Shown: positions 42,469 to 51,027 of the stretch, one piece after another | How positions within the stretch are numbered: position 1 is the first letter of the stretch | Layout of the letters: each line of letters starts with the position of its first letter | Source: Actinacidiphila glaucinigra | Lineage (GTDB): Bacteria > Actinomycetota > Actinomycetes > Streptomycetales > Streptomycetaceae | Length of the DNA stretch: 64,000 nucleotides | Assembly (NCBI RefSeq): GCF_900188405.1 | Contig: NZ_FZOF01000005.1 | Coordinates: 248,001-312,000, forward strand | Direction of reading: 5' to 3' | Program-made: the position numbers and the translations under genes | Notes under the pieces: model-generated | The model's database searches: none | What the model saw: the letters and a program-made list of their open reading frames with translations, nothing else | What the model was told of the DNA's origin: nothing

Positions 42469-42996
42469 CTACGGGTTCTCGTGGGGCTCGGGGGACTCCC
42501 TCCTGCTCCGCAGCACCTTGGCGCGGCCGGCGAGCGGCACCGTCGCCGCGAGGACACCGGCCGCGAGCGCCGCCGCGCCCCAGGCGGGGGCCGGCTGCCA
42601 GGTCAGGCCGAGGACGTGGTCCAGCGACCACTCCCCCGGCCCGGTGAAGCCGAGGCACGCGGCGACCGCGCCGTAGAGGAACGGCACCTCGCAGCCGCCC
42701 TTCAGCGCCCAGAAGCCGCCCGGCGCCGTCGAGGCGGCGGCCACCGTCATCGTGCCGACGACGACCGCGCAGCCGCCCGGCGTCAGCAGTCCGGCCGCGA
42801 CCGACGCCGCTCCGGTCAGCTCGGCCACCCCGGCGACCAGCGCCATCCGCGGCCCGGGGACGACGCCGTACCCCTCGAAGACGGCGCCGGTGCGGGCCAG
42901 GCCCGCCCCGCCGAACCAGCCGCGCAGCTTCTGCGTTGCGTGGCCGAAGAGCAGTGCGGCGAGCAGCAGTCGGAGCAGCAGCAGCCCCAGGTTCAT
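42469..42996 (-). CDS. DoxX-family membrane protein
   Basis: The 175-residue, four-helix membrane protein has the DoxX pattern: LLLRLLLAALLFGHATQKLRGWFGG at the start, then VAGVAELTGAASVAAGLLTP. The C-terminal 15 residues are basic and cytoplasmic. GAAGGAG lies about 10 bases before the ATG. DoxX proteins act in thiosulfate or quinol-linked redox stress. It is codirectional with the PLD gene (105-base gap) but has no obvious functional link. Confidence 0.9.
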   Translation of the reverse strand: MNLGLLLLRLLLAALLFGHATQKLRGWFGGAGLARTGAVFEGYGVVPGPRMALVAGVAELTGAASVAAGLLTPGGCAVVVGTMTVAAASTAPGGFWALKGGCEVPFLYGAVAACLGFTGPGEWSLDHVLGLTWQPAPAWGAAALAAGVLAATVPLAGRAKVLRSRRESPEPHENP

Positions 42997-43050: not shown

Positions 43051-44499
43051 TCACTGGCCGTGCGTCGAGGCGCTGCGGTAGTCGGTGTAGGTGTAGGGGT
43101 TGTCGAGCACCTTCGTCTCGGGGACGTCGGGGTTCATCCCCTTGCGCCACTCCTCCTCGCCCATGGCGGACCGCAGATGGTCCACGGTCTGCTCAACCTC
43201 GCGCCGCACCGCGGCCAGGTCGACGCCGAGCAGGCGGTGCTCGTGCTTGACGACCCGTCCGTTGACGAGCACGGTGTGCACGTCGCCGCGCTGCGCCTGG
43301 AAGGCCACCTGGCCGTACGGGTTGAGCAGCGGGAAGGAGACCGGCGAGTGGTCGTTCTTCAGCAGGACGATGTCGGCCTTCTTGCCGGCCTCCAGGCTGC
43401 CCAGATCCCGCTCGCGGCCGAGGGCCCTGGCTCCGCCGAGGGTGGCCCACTCCACCACCTGGTCGGCGCGCAGCGCGCAGTGGGTGACGGTCTCGCCCTG
43501 GGCGTGCGCCTCCAGGTGCGCGCGGGCACGGTCGGCGCCGAGGGTGGTGCGCATGGCGGAGAACAGGTCGCCGCTCCACCACACGCTGGTGTCCATCGAC
43601 AGGGAGACGGGGATGTCGTGCGAGCGGATGGCCCAGGTCGTCGGGTAGCCCTGGCCGGCGCTCTGCTCGCTCTCGGTCGACACGGAGACCGAGCCGCCGG
43701 TGGCCGCGATGCGGTGGTAGGAGTCGGCGCTGAGCGTCGAGGCGTGGACGTACACCGTCTGCGGGGTCATGAAGCCGTTCTCGTACATCAGGCGGATGCC
43801 GTCGTCGTTGGTGGCACCCCACACCCCGGCGTGGGTGGTGACGGCGACGCCCAGTTCGCGGGCCACCTCGAAGGCGGGCTTCTCGGGGAAGGCGGGGTCG
43901 CCCGTGACGTCGAAGGCGAGCTGGAAGCCGAGCATGTCGTCGCCGTCGACGCGGCGGCCGACGAAGTCGCGGAACTCCGGCGCGGCGGTCCATTCCGCGG
44001 GCGCCTGCTGGATGTTGCCGTAGGCCAGGACGAAGCGGCCGGGCACGGACCGCAGGGCGTCCACGGCGGCGTCGGCGTGGTCCACGGTCTGCAGGCCGTG
44101 AGACCAGTCGACGACGGTCGTGACGCCCGCGTCGAGGGCCTCCACGGCGGCGAGCCGGTTGCCGGCGTGCACGTCCTCGGGGCGGAACTTCCTGCCGTGC
44201 TCCAGGTAGTACCAGACGAAGTACTGCGTGAGGGTCCAGTCGGCGCCGTAACCGCGCATCGCGGTCTGCCACATGTGCCGGTGTGTGTCGATCATGCCCG
44301 GCATGACGACGCCGCCCGTGGCGTCGATCTCCACCGTCCCGTCGGGCACGGCCAGTCGCGGACCGACCGCCGCGATCCGGTCGTCGACGACGAGCACATC
44401 GGTGTCCGCGAGGACCTCGCGCTCACGGTTGACGGGCAGCACGGTCCCACCGCGCAGAACAGTGGGCCGCCCCGGGCTGAATGCCTCGACCTTATCCAT
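43051..44499 (-). CDS. Amidohydrolase (TrzN/AtzA/cytosine-deaminase-like)
   Basis: About 482 residues from ATG 44499; GGGAG is six bases upstream, making it a better start than the adjacent ATG 44502. It has the amidohydrolase metal site DTHRHMW, a beta-sandwich N-terminus (VLRGGTVLPVNREREVL), VTTHAGVWG, STESEQSAGQG, and a C-terminal return strand VHTVLVNGRVVKH. This group hydrolyses ring-bound amino or chloro groups, or deaminates. It is divergent from the ring-cleavage operon, suggesting it makes a substrate for it. Confidence 0.9.
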   Translation of the reverse strand: MDKVEAFSPGRPTVLRGGTVLPVNREREVLADTDVLVVDDRIAAVGPRLAVPDGTVEIDATGGVVMPGMIDTHRHMWQTAMRGYGADWTLTQYFVWYYLEHGRKFRPEDVHAGNRLAAVEALDAGVTTVVDWSHGLQTVDHADAAVDALRSVPGRFVLAYGNIQQAPAEWTAAPEFRDFVGRRVDGDDMLGFQLAFDVTGDPAFPEKPAFEVARELGVAVTTHAGVWGATNDDGIRLMYENGFMTPQTVYVHASTLSADSYHRIAATGGSVSVSTESEQSAGQGYPTTWAIRSHDIPVSLSMDTSVWWSGDLFSAMRTTLGADRARAHLEAHAQGETVTHCALRADQVVEWATLGGARALGRERDLGSLEAGKKADIVLLKNDHSPVSFPLLNPYGQVAFQAQRGDVHTVLVNGRVVKHEHRLLGVDLAAVRREVEQTVDHLRSAMGEEEWRKGMNPDVPETKVLDNPYTYTDYRSASTHGQ

Positions 44500-44612
44500 C
44501 ATGAACTCCCTTGGCCGCTTGACGGACACGAGTACGCTATTCGGCCATCGGACCGAGCGCTAGCCTCAAGACGCGGTTCGGGAGTCACACGTCCCCGAAG
44601 AGGCGCGGCCCC

Positions 44613-44629
44613 TGTCGCAAAACGAGACA
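44613..44629. promoter_or_regulatory. Imperfect inverted repeat near the amidohydrolase promoter
   Basis: TGTCGCAAAACGAGACA has 4-bp outer arms (TGTC/GACA) plus a matched C/G pair. It lies about 115 bases upstream of the amidohydrolase start and could be a second regulator site, weaker than the CGGAC-N4-GTCCG palindrome nearby. Inferred. Confidence 0.35.
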
Positions 44630-44678
44630 CCGCAGTAACGACAGGCCTCTGACCGGCCATGGCCTTGGCGATCACCCT

Positions 44679-44706
44679 TGACGGCCCCGGCTTTCCGCAA
44701 CAGAAT
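44679..44706 (+). promoter_or_regulatory. Promoter of the ring-cleavage operon
   Basis: TTGACG (44679-44684), a 16-base spacer and CAGAAT (44701-44706) make a reasonable sigma70 promoter. The predicted start of transcription near 44713 is covered by the CGGAC-N4-GTCCG operator. Confidence 0.6.
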
Positions 44707-44713
44707 CACGGGT

Positions 44714-44729
44714 ACGGACGGCTGTCCGT
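44714..44729. promoter_or_regulatory. IclR operator, copy 1 (operon side)
   Basis: ACGGACGGCTGTCCGT is a perfect 6-bp inverted repeat around a 4-base spacer. Its core CGGAC-N4-GTCCG is identical in form to the palindrome in the iclR promoter. It overlaps the predicted transcription start, the position expected for repression. Confidence 0.75.
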
Positions 44730-44757
44730 CCTGCGGTCAGATGAAAGGTGACACTGG

Positions 44758-45948
44758 ATGTCAGAGAGCACCGCGCCTGCACGACCGGGCCCGGCGGGCC
44801 CGCTGTCCGGGCTGCTGGTGGCCGACTTCTCCCGGATCCTCGCCGGCCCCTACGCCACGATGCTGCTGGCGGACCTCGGCGCGGACGTCGTCAAGGTCGA
44901 GGGTCCGCAGGGGGACGACACCCGCAGCTGGACGCCCCCGGTACGCGACGAGGTGTCCACCTACTACCTCGGCATCAACCGCGGGAAGCGTTCGATCTCG
45001 CTCGACCTGCGCGGCGAGGCCGACCGGGAGGCGGCGCGCGAACTCGCGCGCCGGGCGGACGTCGTCATCGAGAACTTCCGGCCCGGCGGCCTCGTCAAGT
45101 ACGGCCTGGACTACGCGTCGGTGCGCACCGGCAACCCGGCCGTCGTCTACGCGTCCATCAGCGGCTTCGGCTCCGGCGCCGGGCGCGACGTGCCCGGCTA
45201 CGACCTGATGGTGCAGGCCGTCTCCGGGCTGATGAGCCTCACCGGGGAGACGGGCGGCCCTCCGTACCGGGCCGGGATCTCGGTCTTCGACGTCATGGCG
45301 GGCAACCACGCCGCCATCGGCATCCTCGCCGCCCTGCGGCACCGCGACGCCTCGGGCGAGGGCCAGCACGTCGAGGTCAACCTGCTGTCGTCGGCGCTGA
45401 CCGGACTGGTCAACCACAGCTCGGCCTACGTGGCCGGGGGCGAGGTCCCGTACCGGATGGGCAACGCGCACCCGAGCGTCTTCCCGTACGAACCCCTCCC
45501 CACGGCCGACAACGACCTGATCGTGGCCGCCGCCAACGACGGGCAGTTCCGCAAGTTGTGCGAGGTCCTCGGCATCCCCGGGGTCCCCGACGACCCGCGG
45601 TTCGCGCGCAACGCCGACCGCACCGCGAACCGGGAGGAGCTGCGGCCGCTGCTCGTGGAGCAGCTGGTCAAGCGCGGCGCGAACGAATGGTTCGAGCTGC
45701 TGGTCGCGGCGGGCGTGCCGAGCGGGCCGATCAACACCATCGACGGCGGCTTCGCCATGGCCGAGCGGTTCGGGCTCGACCCGGTCGTCACCGTCGGCGA
45801 AGGAGAGCGCGCGGTGCCCACGACCCGCCACCCGGTCACCTTCTCGGCCACTCCCGCCGTGTACCGGCTGCCGCCGCCCGAGCTCGACGAGCACGGCGCC
45901 GAACTGCGGGCATGGCTCGCCCGGGACCCGGAGGACACCCGTGACTGA
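44758..45948 (+). CDS. CaiB/BaiF-family (type III) CoA-transferase
   Basis: The 396-residue protein shows the family landmarks: LVADFSRILAGPYATMLLADLGADVVKVE at the N-terminus, NRGKRSISLDLR, and VIENFRPGGLVKYGLDY. The expected catalytic Asp lies in DVPGYDLMVQA. Such enzymes move CoA between carboxylic acids without ATP. GAAAGGTG is seven bases before the ATG. It is first in a three-gene unit with a citryl-CoA-lyase-like enzyme and a dioxygenase, suggesting that it activates a ring-cleavage product. Confidence 0.94.
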   Translation: MSESTAPARPGPAGPLSGLLVADFSRILAGPYATMLLADLGADVVKVEGPQGDDTRSWTPPVRDEVSTYYLGINRGKRSISLDLRGEADREAARELARRADVVIENFRPGGLVKYGLDYASVRTGNPAVVYASISGFGSGAGRDVPGYDLMVQAVSGLMSLTGETGGPPYRAGISVFDVMAGNHAAIGILAALRHRDASGEGQHVEVNLLSSALTGLVNHSSAYVAGGEVPYRMGNAHPSVFPYEPLPTADNDLIVAAANDGQFRKLCEVLGIPGVPDDPRFARNADRTANREELRPLLVEQLVKRGANEWFELLVAAGVPSGPINTIDGGFAMAERFGLDPVVTVGEGERAVPTTRHPVTFSATPAVYRLPPPELDEHGAELRAWLARDPEDTRD

Positions 45949-46771
45949 CCCGTCCGCGCCCGGCGGCTACCCCACCGCGCTGGGCGCCTCGGACCGCACC
46001 AGCATCACCCTGCTCGGCCAGGACCTCGCCCAGGACATCATGGGCACGGTCGGCTTCGGCGAACTCGCCTTCTGGCTGGCGACGCAGCGCCGCCCGAGCC
46101 GCGGCGAGACCCGGGTCTTCGAGGCCGTTCTCGCTGCCCTGGCCGACCACGGCTTCACACCCACGGCCATCGTCACCCGGCTGACCTATCTGTCCGCGCC
46201 GGACTCCGTCCAGGGCGCGCTCGCCGCGGGCCTGCTCGGCGGCGGCTCGCGCTTCCTCGGCGTCACCGAGGACACCGGGACGTTCCTGCACGAGGCGCTG
46301 GCCGCGCACGGCGAACCGCCCCGCGACGACACCGGCTGGGACGAGCTGGCGCTCCGTCTGGTCCGCGAGCAGCGGGCGGCCGGCCGGTTCGTCCCGGGCC
46401 TCGGCCACCACGTGCACAAGGACGGTGACCCGCGCACGCCCCGGCTGATGGACATCGCCGCCGAGGAGGGCCTGTTCGGCCCGCACCTGTCGCTGTTCGC
46501 GGCCATCGGCCGGGTACACCCCCAGGTCCTCGGCAGGACCCTGCCGCTCAACGGCGCGGGCGTCTGCGGGGCCGCACTCGCCGACCTCGGACTGCCGCTC
46601 CCGCTGCTGCGCGGATTCGCCCTGCTCGCACGCACCGCCGGGCTCATCGGCCAACTCGCCGAGGAGATGCGCGATCCGGTCGCGAACGACATCTTCCTCT
46701 CCGTCGACCTGAACAACCGGCCCGTCCCGCCCCGGCCGGACACCGAATCCGCAGGGAACACCAAGGAGTGA
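45941..46771 (+). CDS. Citryl-CoA-lyase-like protein (citrate synthase fold)
   Basis: The 276-residue protein resembles the citrate-synthase-fold citryl-CoA lyase domain: TRLTYLSAPDSVQGALAAGLLGGGSRFLG, then PGLGHHVHKDGDPRTPRL with the key His, and NGAGVCGAALADLGLP. It is about half the length of citrate synthase, as expected for the lyase subfamily. Such enzymes cleave hydroxyacyl-CoA into acetyl-CoA and a keto acid. GTG 45941 overlaps the CoA-transferase end by eight bases. The exact substrate is inference. Confidence 0.86.
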   Translation: MTDPSAPGGYPTALGASDRTSITLLGQDLAQDIMGTVGFGELAFWLATQRRPSRGETRVFEAVLAALADHGFTPTAIVTRLTYLSAPDSVQGALAAGLLGGGSRFLGVTEDTGTFLHEALAAHGEPPRDDTGWDELALRLVREQRAAGRFVPGLGHHVHKDGDPRTPRLMDIAAEEGLFGPHLSLFAAIGRVHPQVLGRTLPLNGAGVCGAALADLGLPLPLLRGFALLARTAGLIGQLAEEMRDPVANDIFLSVDLNNRPVPPRPDTESAGNTKE

Positions 46772-46773
46772 CC

Positions 46774-47631
46774 ATGTTCGTCAACGAGGACAACCTCACC
46801 GAGCTGGCGGCCCAGCGCTGGGCGACCTCCCACGACCCGCGCCAGGCGCAGCTGATGTCCGCCCTGGTCCGCCATCTCCACGCGTTCGCCCGCGAGGTGG
46901 AACTCGGCGAGGACGAATGGATGGCCGCGATCCAGTGGCTGACCGAGGCGGGCCGGATCAGCGACGCCAAGCGCCAGGAACTCATCCTCGCCTCTGACGT
47001 GTTCGGGCTCAGCACCCTCGTGGTGCAGCTGAACAACAGGTTCGCGCCCCAGGCCACCCCCGCCACCGTCCTCGGCCCGTTCCACATCGACGGATCGCCC
47101 GCCGCCCCGTACGGCTTCGACATGTCCGACGGCATCCCCGGGACACCGCTGTTCGTCACCGGCAAGGTCACCGACCTGGAGGGCAAGCCCGTCCCCGGGG
47201 CCGTCCTCGACGTGTGGCAGGCGGACGCCGACGGCGCCTACGAGGCGCAGCTCCCCGAGATCGACGAAGCCCGGCTGCGCGCCAAGTACCAGGCCCGGGA
47301 GGACGGCACCTACTGCGTCCGCACCATCGCCCCCCGCGGATACGCGATCCCCATGGACGGACCGGTCGGCGACCTGATCAGCACCACCGACATCAGTCAC
47401 TTCCGCCCCGCGCACGTCCACTTCCTGATCAACGAGCCCGGGTACGAGAAGCTGATCACCCATCTGTTCCAGGAGGGCAGCGAGTACCTGGACAGCGACG
47501 TCGTCTTCGGCACGAAGGAAGCGCTGGTGGTGCGGTTCCACGAGCGGCCGGCGGGACCCGCCCCCGACGGCACGACGCTCGACGTCCCGTATCTGCGGGC
47601 CGAGTTCGACTTCGTCCTGCAGTCCGGCTGA
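46774..47631 (+). CDS. Intradiol ring-cleavage dioxygenase (catechol/hydroxyquinol type)
   Basis: The 285-residue iron(III) dioxygenase has an N-terminal dimer domain (about 1-90) and a catalytic barrel. Metal ligands are a Tyr in GSPAAPYGFDM, a Tyr in APRGYAIP, and two His in RPAHVHFLI. The form is that of hydroxyquinol or catechol 1,2-dioxygenases. ATG 46774 has AAGGAG five bases upstream; the overlapping GTG 46768 is less likely. It cleaves the ring between adjacent hydroxyls, giving muconate- or maleylacetate-type products. No muconate cycloisomerase or maleylacetate reductase gene is nearby. Confidence 0.93.
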   Translation: MFVNEDNLTELAAQRWATSHDPRQAQLMSALVRHLHAFAREVELGEDEWMAAIQWLTEAGRISDAKRQELILASDVFGLSTLVVQLNNRFAPQATPATVLGPFHIDGSPAAPYGFDMSDGIPGTPLFVTGKVTDLEGKPVPGAVLDVWQADADGAYEAQLPEIDEARLRAKYQAREDGTYCVRTIAPRGYAIPMDGPVGDLISTTDISHFRPAHVHFLINEPGYEKLITHLFQEGSEYLDSDVVFGTKEALVVRFHERPAGPAPDGTTLDVPYLRAEFDFVLQSG

Positions 47632-47695: not shown

Positions 47696-48538
47696 TCAGC
47701 CCGTGGCGGTACCACCGCCGGGGGCCGGCGCGGCGGCCGGCCGGACCTCGCTGTGCGGGCGGCTCTGCCACAGCGCCCAGTCCGCCGAGACGTCCCCGGC
47801 CGCGCGCAGCAGCAGCGGGAGGTAGGTGCCGGTGAGCACGTCCACCCCGGTCTCGGCGGCGTGCACGGTGACGTTCATCGCCGCGCGTACCGCCCCGTCG
47901 CCGTCGCGCACGGGCACGGCGACCGACCGTACGCCGGGCGCGAGTTCCTCGTCGGCCAGCGCCCAGCCGCGAGCCCGGACCGTGCGCAGTTCCGCGGCGA
48001 ACTCCTCGGGCGTCGGGCGCGGGAAGGCGGGAAGCCCGGAGCGGCTGGGCTCGGCCAGGACGGCCTCCAGTTCCTCCGGGCCCAGGGCGGCGAGCAGCAC
48101 CTTGCCCTGGGAGGTCTGCGGGGCGGGGAACCGGGTACCGATGTCCACCCGCAGCGCGATGATCTTCGGTACGGAGACCCGGGCCACGTAGACGATGTCC
48201 GAGCCGTCCAGCTGCGCCATCGAGGACGACTCCCCGGTCTGCGTGACCAGCGCCTCCATGTGGGGGCGGGCCACGTCCCACAGGCCGAGCGAGCCCACGT
48301 AGGACATGCCCAGCCGCAGCACGCGCGGGGTGAGGGTGAACGCGCCCTGGTCGGTGCGGACGTAGCCGAGTTCCTCGAGCGTCAGCAGCAGACGACGCGC
48401 GGTCGGCCGCGCCAGCCCCGTGGCGGCGGCGATCTCGCTGAGCGTCAGCCGGCGGTGCCGGGCGTCGAAGCAGCCCAGCACGTCCAGCCCGCGGGCCAGT
48501 GCCTCCACGAAGTCCGGACCGCTTCCGCGCCCTGCCAT
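47696..48538 (-). CDS. IclR-family transcriptional regulator
   Basis: The 280-residue protein has an N-terminal winged HTH (RGLDVLGCFDARHRRLTLSEIAAATGLARPTARRLLLTLEELGYV) and a GAF-like IclR effector domain containing SQGKVLLAALGPEEL. The C-terminus is Pro/Ala-rich. It is convergent with the ring-cleavage operon, and its promoter contains the same palindrome as the operon promoter. It probably represses both and is relieved by an aromatic or ring-cleavage product. Confidence 0.95.
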   Translation of the reverse strand: MAGRGSGPDFVEALARGLDVLGCFDARHRRLTLSEIAAATGLARPTARRLLLTLEELGYVRTDQGAFTLTPRVLRLGMSYVGSLGLWDVARPHMEALVTQTGESSSMAQLDGSDIVYVARVSVPKIIALRVDIGTRFPAPQTSQGKVLLAALGPEELEAVLAEPSRSGLPAFPRPTPEEFAAELRTVRARGWALADEELAPGVRSVAVPVRDGDGAVRAAMNVTVHAAETGVDVLTGTYLPLLLRAAGDVSADWALWQSRPHSEVRPAAAPAPGGGTATG

Positions 48539-49068: not shown

Positions 49069-49920
49069 ATGCCGATCCCCGTGTCCCAGGCCCTCGACGA
49101 GCAGGGGCGGACCGCCGCCGACAAGGCCGCCGGCCTCCTCAGCCCGGGCCGCTATCTGGTCAGCTCCCTGCTGGCCGGCGCGTTCATCGGGATCGCGGCC
49201 GTGCTGCTGCTCACGGTCACCGGACCGCTGGCGGCCGCGGGGTCGCCGTTCACGAAGCTCGTCCAGGGCCTGCTGTTCGCCGTGGGGCTCATCCTGGTGG
49301 TCTTCGCCGGCGCCGAACTCGCCACCGGCAACATGATGACGAGCGTCCAGGGCTTCCTCGTCCGCAGCATCAGCGGTGCCAACGCGGCGGCCCTGATCGT
49401 CGGTTCGTTCGTGGGCAACCTCATCGGGTCCGTCCTCTTCGCCCTGGTGGTGCACGGCAGCGGGGTCATCGGCGCCGGTGCCGCTCCCGGGCACACCGCG
49501 CCGGCCCTCGCGCTGCTCACCACCCTGCTCAAGACGAAGGCCGCGGAGTCCGGCTCGGCGCTGTTCTTCCGCGGTGTGCTCTGCAACTTCCTGGTCTGCC
49601 TGGGCGTGTGGATGGCCGCCCGGACCAAGTCGGACGGCGCCAAGATCACAGTGATCTTCTGGGCCCTGCTGGCGTTCGTCGGCTCCGGCTTCGAGCACGT
49701 CGTGGCGAACATGACGTACTACTCGCTGGGGATGTTCGAGCACGTGCCGGACGCGACGGCCGCGGGCTTCGCGCGCAACCTGCTGTTCGTGGGCCTCGGC
49801 AACCTCGTCGGCGGCGGCCTGCTGGTCGGCGCCGCGTACGCGTTCCTGGGCCGCGGCAGGCCGGGGAGGCCCGCCGGCGGGCCCGCCCCCGTCGAGGCTC
49901 CGGAGTCGGTCCCGGTCTGA
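49069..49920 (+). CDS. Formate/nitrite transporter (FNT) family channel
   Basis: The 283-residue protein has six membrane helices and the FNT pattern: LAGAFIGIAAVLLL, FAGAELATGNMM, FFRGVLCNFLVCLGVWMA, and GSGFEHVVANMTYY with the central His. These pentameric channels pass formate, nitrite or similar small anions. GTGACACC precedes the ATG. It lies about 23 kb from the formate-dehydrogenase-like genes, so a link to them is speculative. The C-terminal tail is Pro/Gly-rich. Confidence 0.93.
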   Translation: MPIPVSQALDEQGRTAADKAAGLLSPGRYLVSSLLAGAFIGIAAVLLLTVTGPLAAAGSPFTKLVQGLLFAVGLILVVFAGAELATGNMMTSVQGFLVRSISGANAAALIVGSFVGNLIGSVLFALVVHGSGVIGAGAAPGHTAPALALLTTLLKTKAAESGSALFFRGVLCNFLVCLGVWMAARTKSDGAKITVIFWALLAFVGSGFEHVVANMTYYSLGMFEHVPDATAAGFARNLLFVGLGNLVGGGLLVGAAYAFLGRGRPGRPAGGPAPVEAPESVPV

Positions 49921-49932
49921 ACGACGCGGGCC

Positions 49933-49968
49933 GGTCCGGCGGCGGGCCCGGGGGGCCACCGCCGGACC
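49933..49968. terminator. Bidirectional terminator between FNT and pirin genes
   Basis: GGTCCGGCGG (49933-49942) pairs perfectly with CCGCCGGACC (49959-49968) around a 16-base loop. It lies in the 55-base gap between two convergent genes. Confidence 0.75.
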
Positions 49969-49975
49969 GCGCCGG

Positions 49976-50902
49976 TCAGTGCGTGTTCCCCCGCGACTTC
50001 AGGGGCACGCGCGGCAGCTCCGGGGCGGGCAGCGCGTCACCGCCGTAGCCCTCGACCTCACCGAACCGGGTGCCCGTCATCCAGTCGGAGCGGGCCTGTT
50101 CGATGTCCTCCTGCGTACGGCCGATGAAGTTCCACCACATGATGATCCGCTCCTCGAAGGGCGGACCCCCGAGCAGCACCGCCCGGGCGGGGGCGTCGGC
50201 GTGGTTGGTCAGGGTCAGGGTGTCGCCGCCGGGGGCCAGGTAGCCGAGATCGGCCGGGCTCAGCCGTGTGCCGGCCATCTCGACGTCGCCGCTGTCGACG
50301 AGCAGGCCGTGCTCGTGGGCCGGGTCGACGGCCAGGGTGACGGTCGCACCGGGATCGAGGGCGAGTTCGGCACCGAGCAGCGGGGTGAAGGTCGCCACCG
50401 GCGAGGTGGCGCCGGCCAGGGACCCCAGGAACACCCGCGCCACGCCCCCGCCGAGCGCCACGGGCTCCGGTACGTAGTGCTGGAAGGCGGGGGCGGTGTC
50501 GCGGTCCCGCTCGGGGAGCACGACCCACAGCTGGACCCCGTGCAGGACCGTGGTGCGCTCGGTGGAGACCTCGGAGTGGCTGATGCCGTGCCCGCCGGTC
50601 ATGAGGTTGAGCTCGCCGGGCCGCACGTAGGCGTGCGTCCCGAGGCTGTCGCGGTGCTCGATCTCGCCGCTGAAGAGCCAGCTCACGGTCTGGAGCCCGG
50701 TGTGGGGGTGGGGCGCGACGTCCATGCCCCCGGTGTCGGAGACGTCGTCCGGACCGTAGTGGTCGGCGAAGCACCAGGCGCCGATCAGCGAGCGGTTCCG
50801 CTGCGGCAGGGTGCGCCGCACCGTCATCGCACGGGGACCGCCGAGCGGGACGTCGCGGGCGGACAGGATCTCCACGGCGGTCTCTGCCTGGGACTCGCTC
50901 AT
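49976..50902 (-). CDS. Pirin-family cupin protein
   Basis: The 308-residue protein has two cupin barrels. The N-terminal metal site is seen in MDVAPHPHTGLQTVSWLFSGEIEHRDSLG with HxH and a distant His in GHGISHSE. The C-terminal pirin domain ends in GPPFEERIIMWWNFIGRTQEDIEQARSDW, a strongly conserved segment. The start is ATG 50902. Pirins include quercetin 2,3-dioxygenase-like enzymes and redox-responsive regulators; the function here is unknown. Confidence 0.94.
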   Translation of the reverse strand: MSESQAETAVEILSARDVPLGGPRAMTVRRTLPQRNRSLIGAWCFADHYGPDDVSDTGGMDVAPHPHTGLQTVSWLFSGEIEHRDSLGTHAYVRPGELNLMTGGHGISHSEVSTERTTVLHGVQLWVVLPERDRDTAPAFQHYVPEPVALGGGVARVFLGSLAGATSPVATFTPLLGAELALDPGATVTLAVDPAHEHGLLVDSGDVEMAGTRLSPADLGYLAPGGDTLTLTNHADAPARAVLLGGPPFEERIIMWWNFIGRTQEDIEQARSDWMTGTRFGEVEGYGGDALPAPELPRVPLKSRGNTH

Positions 50903-51027
50903 GTCGCGCTTCTCACACAACGACTGCTTCGAATTTCAACAATCATGGTGGTGATGATACGGCGATGCCCGCCACGGACGACGGCGCATCCCACGGCGGC
51001 CGGAGACGGCCCTGCGAAGGAGTGCTG

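Follow-up and report, generated by a model that had tools for sequence, protein, structure and literature searches.

A conserved gene set of Actinacidiphila glaucinigra that may couple polyhydroxybenzene ring cleavage to CoA-dependent carbon-carbon cleavage

What does a hydroxyquinol-type ring-cleavage dioxygenase do in an operon with a coenzyme A (CoA) transferase and a protein annotated as citryl-CoA lyase? The question is raised by a locus of Actinacidiphila glaucinigra (contig NZ_FZOF01000005.1, positions 248,001 to 312,000); this whole stretch of 64,000 nucleotides, referred to here as the window, is part of a 9.8-Mb genome in 80 contigs. A preliminary description of the window had proposed an overlapping three-gene operon for the CoA-transferase, the lyase and an intradiol dioxygenase, divergent from an amidohydrolase gene, and gene coordinates and family searches agree with this layout (Table 1). 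The overlap is 8 bases between the CoA-transferase and lyase genes and 4 bases between the lyase and dioxygenase genes. All four genes showed a coding G+C pattern, with values of 0.93-0.95 at the third position. The gene for an IclR-type regulator, convergent to the dioxygenase operon, had been missed. The claimed absence of a maleylacetate reductase holds for the 64-kb window, in which tblastn with five reductase queries found no homologue; no LeuC homologue was found in the window either. We propose, with a probability of about 0.6, that these genes form a catabolic cassette in which cleavage of a polyhydroxybenzene ring is followed by CoA-dependent C-C cleavage.

A scan of one genome per species (84,980 species) revealed at least 480 stretches encoding a relative of the lyase, and the best 80 were kept. 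Among these 80 loci, the CoA-transferase was found in 78, the amidohydrolase in 73 and an IclR homologue in 72. An intradiol dioxygenase was found in 29 and a LigB protein of 287 amino acids in 46 (two loci have both), and seven loci have neither. The inclusion of plasmid records and of genomes from the order and class raised the number of loci with a lyase match to 159, of which 27 with less than 4.5 kb on one side were left out. The 116 near loci, window included, have a lyase identity of at least 60% and flanks of 4.5 kb or more on each side; a gene counted as near if tblastn matched it at E 1e-12 no more than 9 kb away, or 3.5 kb in the case of the CoA-transferase. Loci were picked by lyase similarity and not by the other genes; some organisms are present in two genome sets (e.g. 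loci L101 and L179), and there are two duplicate lyase sequences among the 116. The CoA-transferase is present in 111 of the 116 near loci and the amidohydrolase in 106 of those 111. A ring dioxygenase occurs in exactly the same 106 loci: LigB only in 73, intradiol only in 31 and both in two (L100, with two genes near the set, and L112, with a distant intradiol gene at the locus edge). This co-occurrence of amidohydrolase and ring dioxygenase in the same 106 of 111 loci supports the earlier view of the four genes as one functional unit. The possibility that the neighbourhood is not conserved, which the preliminary description had allowed for, fails, as the search of other genomes found the set strongly conserved. 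A chance neighbourhood was rejected on the conservation seen among the best 80 loci and the 116 near loci.

The substrate would be a benzene ring with three or four hydroxyl groups. Ring opening by the dioxygenase, which is of the hydroxyquinol-type intradiol kind here and of the LigB-type extradiol kind in most relatives, would yield a beta-keto (3-oxo) dicarboxylic acid. CoA would be loaded onto this diacid by the class III CoA-transferase, and the resulting CoA ester, in its beta-keto form or hydrated to the beta-hydroxy form, would be split by the citrate-synthase-like protein into acetyl-CoA and a C4 dicarboxylic acid. These two proteins would stand in for PcaIJ and the thiolase PcaF, with no maleylacetate reductase step. 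A sequence of CoA loading and subsequent C-C cleavage that releases acetyl-CoA had been suggested before and is the most coherent chemistry for the gene set. The amidohydrolase would probably act before or at ring opening, by hydrolytic removal of a substituent or by opening a lactone form of the cleavage product, and the IclR protein probably controls the gene set.

Analysis of the window dioxygenase revealed hydroxyquinol 1,2-dioxygenase (1tmx, 1.5e-75) and PnpC (3n9t, 5.6e-75) as best PDB matches. Its four iron ligands (Table 1) aligned with, and were invariant across, the rows compared. At 15 iron and pocket positions (1tmx numbering) the cassette dioxygenases match four canonical hydroxyquinol dioxygenase rows, the exception being position 108, where F or L occurs among the canonical rows. 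Among the 43 cassette rows of the pocket comparison and tree are two copies of the genome's canonical enzymes (L174 and L175) and three groups of duplicated loci; the distant 42% row L112 and the intradiol enzymes found in L219, L230, L235 and L236 are not part of them. Judged by sequence, the window dioxygenase keeps a hydroxyquinol-type pocket. In the tree the cassette dioxygenases split from the canonical group with a support of 1.000. Two further hydroxyquinol-type dioxygenases of this genome fall in the canonical group, at 42-43% identity to the window enzyme; each adjoins a reductase 51-60% identical to annotated maleylacetate reductases, whereas the window dioxygenase has none. Classical operons with a dioxygenase adjoining a maleylacetate reductase lie on other contigs of this genome (L215 5439-9217 and L216 6394-8374), and one of them begins with a monooxygenase-type gene of the flavin adenine dinucleotide (FAD) kind.

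The intradiol dioxygenase of the preliminary description is dispensable for the design of the set: in most loci its place is taken by an unrelated extradiol enzyme of the LigB type. In the lyase tree (108 of 110 rows), the dioxygenase label needs at least 13 changes, six of them forced by starred branches, and repeated exchange is read from parsimony and the starred branches alone in a quick tree with 46 of 105 inner branches open, several long rows and a program warning of long branches meeting. The starred sister pairs L116/L236 and L199/L204 differ in their dioxygenases. The swapped dioxygenases point to one shared substrate and are the strongest clue to it. On chemical reasoning, intradiol and extradiol cleavage would give the same product only with a hydroxyl group on the carbon beside the diol, that is, with a vicinal triol.

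The cassette LigB passed PF02900, with gallate dioxygenase (3wku, 6.6e-19) as best PDB match, and scored below the cut-off of each of the ten NCBIfam models listed. It resembles LigAB and DesB as a PF02900 LigB protein followed on its 3' side by a small conserved gene with a weak LigA match, termed LigA-like here, and differs from DesB in its low identity and in a Leu at a DesB His position. Its active-site region in L063 (8821-9684) and 95 more aligned rows reads GTGHLSLELGGPRQ and GNATHGFMD, versus GTGGLSHQVHGER and GWEGAE in gallate dioxygenase. The cassette LigB proteins may be a separate class III extradiol group, going by these alignments.

The lyase scored 265.8 bits against NF004868 'citryl-CoA lyase' (cut-off 193) and belongs to the PRK06224.1-5 subfamily. 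In citrate synthase and ATP-citrate lyase a pair of histidines and an aspartic acid (in LNVDG) are catalytic, and the Asp of citrate synthase handles the methyl group of acetyl-CoA. Alignment of the window lyase to the citryl-CoA lyase and ATP-citrate lyase citryl-CoA module (6hxp and 6qcl) showed that the two histidines (H70 and H156) are kept, whereas the Asp is replaced by A206 in LNGAG; the alignment to 6hxp is gap-free over this stretch. In all subfamily relatives aligned (26% to 86% identical), among them proteins of Cupriavidus, Phaeobacter, Aminobacter, Sinorhizobium and Martelella, the Asp position is Ala, Ser, Thr or Pro. Since the catalytic Asp is absent, the standard citryl- or citramalyl-CoA retro-aldol reaction is not to be assumed, and the name 'citryl-CoA lyase' is doubtful for this subfamily. 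The earlier assignment to a citryl-CoA-lyase-like enzyme is thus borne out for sequence family and the two histidines but not for the catalytic Asp. The reading as a plain citryl-CoA lyase was rejected on the loss of this Asp. The predicted structure of the lyase was set aside as a poor model (mean predicted local distance difference test (pLDDT) 65.8; predicted template modelling score (pTM) 0.63). The lyase was found in 29 of 391 genomes of the order (E 1e-20) and in 48 of 394 genomes of the class (E 1e-40).

The CoA-transferase is by its sequence signature an ordinary class III enzyme that matched no named equivalog: its best PDB match is 4ed9 (1.3e-92), with D178 aligned to a conserved 4ed9 position, and its best NCBIfam model is NF052585 succinate-glutarate CoA-transferase (363 bits, far below the cut-off of 750). 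The IclR protein falls just below the cut-off of TIGR02431 (PcaR/PcaU/PobR), 284.75 bits.

The amidohydrolase likewise scored just below the cut-off of PRK08204 (NF006056; 374.2 bits, cut-off 391), which the amidohydrolases of L204, L226 and L229 exceed (467.4, 554.8 and 590.9 bits). The mononuclear metal ligands HxH, H, H and D are present and invariant across 25 aligned sequences. The predicted model (mean pLDDT 77.8) gave 4f0s as best fold match (Z 40.8, root mean square deviation 2.4, 403 aligned), followed by TrzN (3ls9, Z 39.0) and AtzA (4v1x, Z 38.0), a match of fold that says nothing on the substrate. The window enzyme is therefore like AtzA/TrzN-type amidohydrolases in fold and metal ligands, but it lacks the Glu three residues past the beta-5 metal His, the stretch being T232-H233-A-G-V236 and invariant in 25 rows. 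H-x-x-E, starting with the beta-5 His, is the usual motif of AtzA/TrzN-type hydrolases and deaminases. Because this Glu is missing, removal of a substituent in the style of a deaminase or chlorohydrolase is not to be taken for granted. PRK08204-type amidohydrolases stand beside a dioxygenase and a maleylacetate reductase in two of three such plasmid neighbourhoods (L226 and L229), an arrangement that suggests a role no later than ring opening; being next to either lower branch, the amidohydrolase goes with hydroxyquinol-type ring opening whichever branch follows. The earlier idea that it removes a ring substituent is compatible with the presence of such enzymes beside ring-opening genes. The amidohydrolase step is the least certain part of the proposed pathway.

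Comparison with Pseudomonadota revealed similar sets in both versions, with LigB in L220, L221, L222 and L233 and with the intradiol enzyme in L230 and L235. LigB proteins on Hyphomicrobiales plasmids are 61-66% identical to the cassette LigB. In Sinorhizobium sp. B11 and Martelella the lyase, CoA-transferase, LigB, small gene, amidohydrolase and IclR gene occur together. Plasmids of Rhizobium johnstonii and Rhizobium sp. Q54 carry LigB and the small gene, the rest not being in the stretch read, and plasmid pUSP2 of Aminobacter MSH1 carries the set without the amidohydrolase, plus a MetE-like protein 71% identical to that of some actinobacterial loci. A Burkholderia glumae plasmid encodes in a row an intradiol dioxygenase, the lyase, an MhpA-like hydroxylase, the CoA-transferase, LeuC and LeuD. 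A maleylacetate reductase was found in three of the five proteobacterial intradiol neighbourhoods read (L226, L228 and L229), and the amidohydrolase gene is cut at the edge of L227.

Four loci (L116, L199, L204 and L219) share a second architecture: in these an MhpA-like FAD hydroxylase is joined by a hydrolase and by a further amidohydrolase with 31-34% identity to that of the window. The best PDB match of the hydrolase is 2jbw, 2,6-dihydroxypseudooxynicotine hydrolase, and it was found in one of 396 genomes of the phylum (E 1e-50). Exchange of the dioxygenase also occurs inside this architecture: L116 and L204 carry LigB, L199 has a dioxygenase of the window type, and L219 has a different intradiol enzyme of 38% identity. 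The pair of MhpA-like hydroxylase and 2jbw-like C-C hydrolase, seen for example at 12819-15842 of L199, suggests acyl-resorcinol or acyl-phloroglucinol substrates upstream.

Several observations weigh against the proposed pathway. Intradiol and extradiol enzymes need not share a substrate. The cassette LigB is 29.7% identical to gallate dioxygenase DesB over 246 columns; in this alignment the His of the DesB motif GGLSH corresponds to a Leu, which follows an invariant His by three residues, and no Glu lines up with the Glu residues of DesB's GWEGAE. The LigA-like gene scored 13.0, 18.0, 18.6 and 14.2 bits against Pfam LigA in four examples (cut-off 25.3). The Leu, the low identity and the sub-cut-off LigA partner make the substrate, and even the reaction, of the cassette LigB uncertain. 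None of the CoA-transferase or lyase models names the proposed substrate. The lyase subfamily also occurs apart from the dioxygenase or CoA-transferase, so its chemistry may be more general; the Cupriavidus lyase is accompanied by LeuCD, which suggests ordinary citramalyl-type chemistry in that genus. By inspection, a lyase of the same subfamily directly adjoins an AMP-dependent acyl-CoA ligase-like gene, with no dioxygenase, in L201 (8220-10600) and L205 (6795-8288), another use of the subfamily. Five near loci (L041, L043, L115, L131 and L139) have the lyase and CoA-transferase without the amidohydrolase and both dioxygenases. The CoA-transferase is missing in five of the 116: L145 (lyase fragment only), L193, L201 and L202 are also without the amidohydrolase and dioxygenase, and L035 has the intradiol enzyme. 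No dioxygenase match was found in 10 of 16 more distant loci, the amidohydrolase is missing in proteobacterial L220 and L230, and L116 has LeuD with no annotated LeuC in the stretch read. Finally, KpiC of Arthrobacter sp. IN13, a PF01979 protein like the amidohydrolase, is reported to be a dioxygenase that opens the ring of 3,4-dihydroxypyridine (PMC7356986).

The cassette might degrade 1,2,3,5-tetrahydroxybenzene or a close tetra-ol via 2,4-dioxoadipyl-CoA to acetyl-CoA and oxaloacetate, a proposal that we regard as rather doubtful. This compound is hydroxyquinol with an extra hydroxyl group and a gallate-like vicinal triol, so both cleavages would give 2,4-dioxoadipate. The CoA-transferase would form 2,4-dioxoadipyl-CoA, and the Asp-less lyase would release acetyl-CoA and oxaloacetate, two natural ligands of the fold, by a hydrolytic retro-Claisen reaction. 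The amidohydrolase would open the 4-hydroxy-2-pyrone-6-carboxylate lactone or make the tetra-ol, which could come, for example, from phloroglucinol-type compounds or from decarboxylating hydroxylation of gallate. If true, aerobic ring degradation would gain a new pathway and the citrate synthase fold a new reaction. Alternatively, hydroxyquinol itself may be cleaved to maleylacetate, which the CoA-transferase and lyase would convert to acetyl-CoA and maleate; a maleate hydratase (of LeuCD type where present) would then give malate, and the LigB relatives would act on a different triol and share the lower half only. The pocket, identical to that of hydroxyquinol dioxygenases, agrees with this, and the LeuC and LeuD that accompany the dioxygenase, lyase and CoA-transferase in Burkholderia glumae could be the maleate hydratase. 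We nevertheless consider it unlikely: a LeuC homologue is absent from the window and within range in only one of the 116 near loci (L194), and the LigB-type enzyme shares the slot and the partners although, as far as we know extradiol chemistry, it cannot yield maleylacetate from hydroxyquinol.

A substrate of the gallate or pyrogallol type is as doubtful as the tetra-ol. The vicinal triol would be opened to 4-oxalomesaconate or 2-hydroxymuconate, the amidohydrolase would hydrate the product, and the tertiary alcohol so formed would be a true citryl-CoA-like substrate for cleavage by the CoA-transferase and lyase. LigJ, another amidohydrolase-superfamily enzyme, performs such a hydration, and gallate dioxygenase is the nearest solved structure to the cassette LigB; furthermore, a PobA-like hydroxylase (215.7 bits, cut-off 351) stands beside the set in L042 and L090, and tripartite ATP-independent periplasmic (TRAP) transporters, usual for acids, occur in L220 and L222. 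The intradiol enzyme, however, has a pocket of the hydroxyquinol type, the cleavage product 2,4-dioxoglutarate is awkward and the Asp expected for citryl-CoA cleavage is missing, and the pyrogallol route via 2-hydroxymuconate is lowered by its lack of a beta-keto acid for the CoA step. It is distinctly improbable that the window encodes an ordinary hydroxyquinol dioxygenase whose maleylacetate reductase lies elsewhere, the CoA-transferase and lyase being an unrelated organic-acid route adjacent by chance. The genome does have two maleylacetate reductases elsewhere, and the lyase and CoA-transferase occur without a dioxygenase in, for example, L041, L118 and L231; yet both reductases are already paired with their own adjacent dioxygenase, and the four genes stand together in 106 of the 116 near loci and also in Sinorhizobium and Martelella. 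Least probable by far is a degradation route for an N-heterocycle in which the amidohydrolase would itself be the oxygenase, acting on a hydroxypyridine or a similar ring. KpiC provides the precedent within PF01979 (PMC7356986), but the set already holds a ring-opening dioxygenase, and its pocket is of the benzenetriol kind.

The proposed polyhydroxybenzene cassette shares with the hydroxyquinol (resorcinol) pathway the dioxygenase family and pocket, and PRK08204-type amidohydrolases stand beside the dioxygenase-reductase pairs of that pathway in L226 and L229. It differs from that pathway in having no maleylacetate reductase in the window, in its CoA-transferase and lyase, and in a dioxygenase replaceable by the LigB type. 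CoA loading followed by a split to acetyl-CoA, and a regulator of the PcaR/PcaU kind, recall the lower half of the beta-ketoadipate pathway (PcaIJ, PcaF), although the class III transferase and citrate-synthase-like protein are of other families than PcaIJ and PcaF. The second architecture resembles the isoflavone ifc cluster, which according to the portion of PMC11069340 considered here encodes an FAD hydroxylase together with a hydrolase resembling 2,6-dihydroxypseudooxynicotine hydrolase; for the ifc and fde (naringenin) clusters, however, that portion names a glyoxalase-type dioxygenase and cupins, and the terms 'CoA transferase' and 'amidohydrolase' are absent from the main text. Among the top-ranked matches in the open PubMed Central (PMC) literature, judged by titles and the starts of abstracts (subscription literature lay outside this scope), the gene combination was not described, and hydroxyquinol together with citryl-CoA lyase gave no match in the open PMC literature. 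The enzyme families are each known, and the pathway is apparently undescribed as far as these open-literature listings show.

If the proposed pathway is right, a lower route for polyhydroxybenzenes exists in many actinobacteria and in some rhizobia and burkholderias, hidden under the annotations 'citryl-CoA lyase' and 'amidohydrolase'. It would also suggest that the Asp-less 'citryl-CoA lyase' subfamily does other C-C chemistry, which could be useful in the breakdown of lignin, tannins and flavonoids and in engineering pathways. An operon position at which two unrelated dioxygenases have repeatedly replaced each other amounts to a natural experiment, one that constrains the substrate through chemistry.

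Table 1. Features of the locus, in positions of the window
Feature	Position	Strand	Evidence and remarks
DoxX-family membrane protein	42469..42996	-	PF07681 9.7e-11; possible accessory gene 3' of amidohydrolase
AtzA/TrzN-type (COG0402-like) amidohydrolase	43051..44529	-	PF01979 5.5e-30; presumed ligands H83, H85, H233, H262, D313
Divergent intergenic region, 228 bp	44530..44757	.	Gene coordinates and sequence; presumed promoter/operator
Class III (CaiB/BaiF) CoA-transferase	44758..45948	+	PF02515 2.4e-116; Asp178
Citrate-synthase-like C-C lyase, annotated 'citryl-CoA lyase'	45941..46771	+	PF00285 C-terminal domain 3.4e-15; NF004868
Hydroxyquinol-1,2-dioxygenase-type intradiol dioxygenase	46768..47631	+	PF04444 7e-27, PF00775 3.7e-37; Y158, Y192, H216, H218
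IclR-type regulator, PcaR/PcaU/PobR kind	47696..48538	-	PF01614, PF09339; TIGR02431 265.3 bits

Other genes accompany the cassette in some loci. Sixty of the 116 near loci also contain a quinone-oxidoreductase-like zinc dehydrogenase, whose match to the quinone family is far below the cut-off, and L221 and L233 have NAD(P)H-dependent oxidoreductases; these enzymes would suit autoxidising polyols, a weak hint. A MetE-like protein (Meth_synt_2; L102 10669-11706, L220 8959-9984) stands beside some cassettes of Pseudonocardia, Actinomycetospora and Aminobacter and could be a demethylase for methoxylated polyols. On a Rhodococcus rhodochrous plasmid (L115 4135-8798) the lyase and CoA-transferase occur with neither dioxygenase, and the VOC-family protein and FAD oxidoreductase alongside could represent a third kind of ring opening. 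Just past the IclR gene the window holds a formate/nitrite transporter and a pirin gene (49069-50920), which are probably outside the gene set, as a homologue of each was found in one of the best 80 loci. A DoxX homologue was found in seven of the best 80 loci, and in L039, L051, L078, L081 and L098 the order is dioxygenase, DoxX, amidohydrolase, CoA-transferase and lyase, all in one direction.

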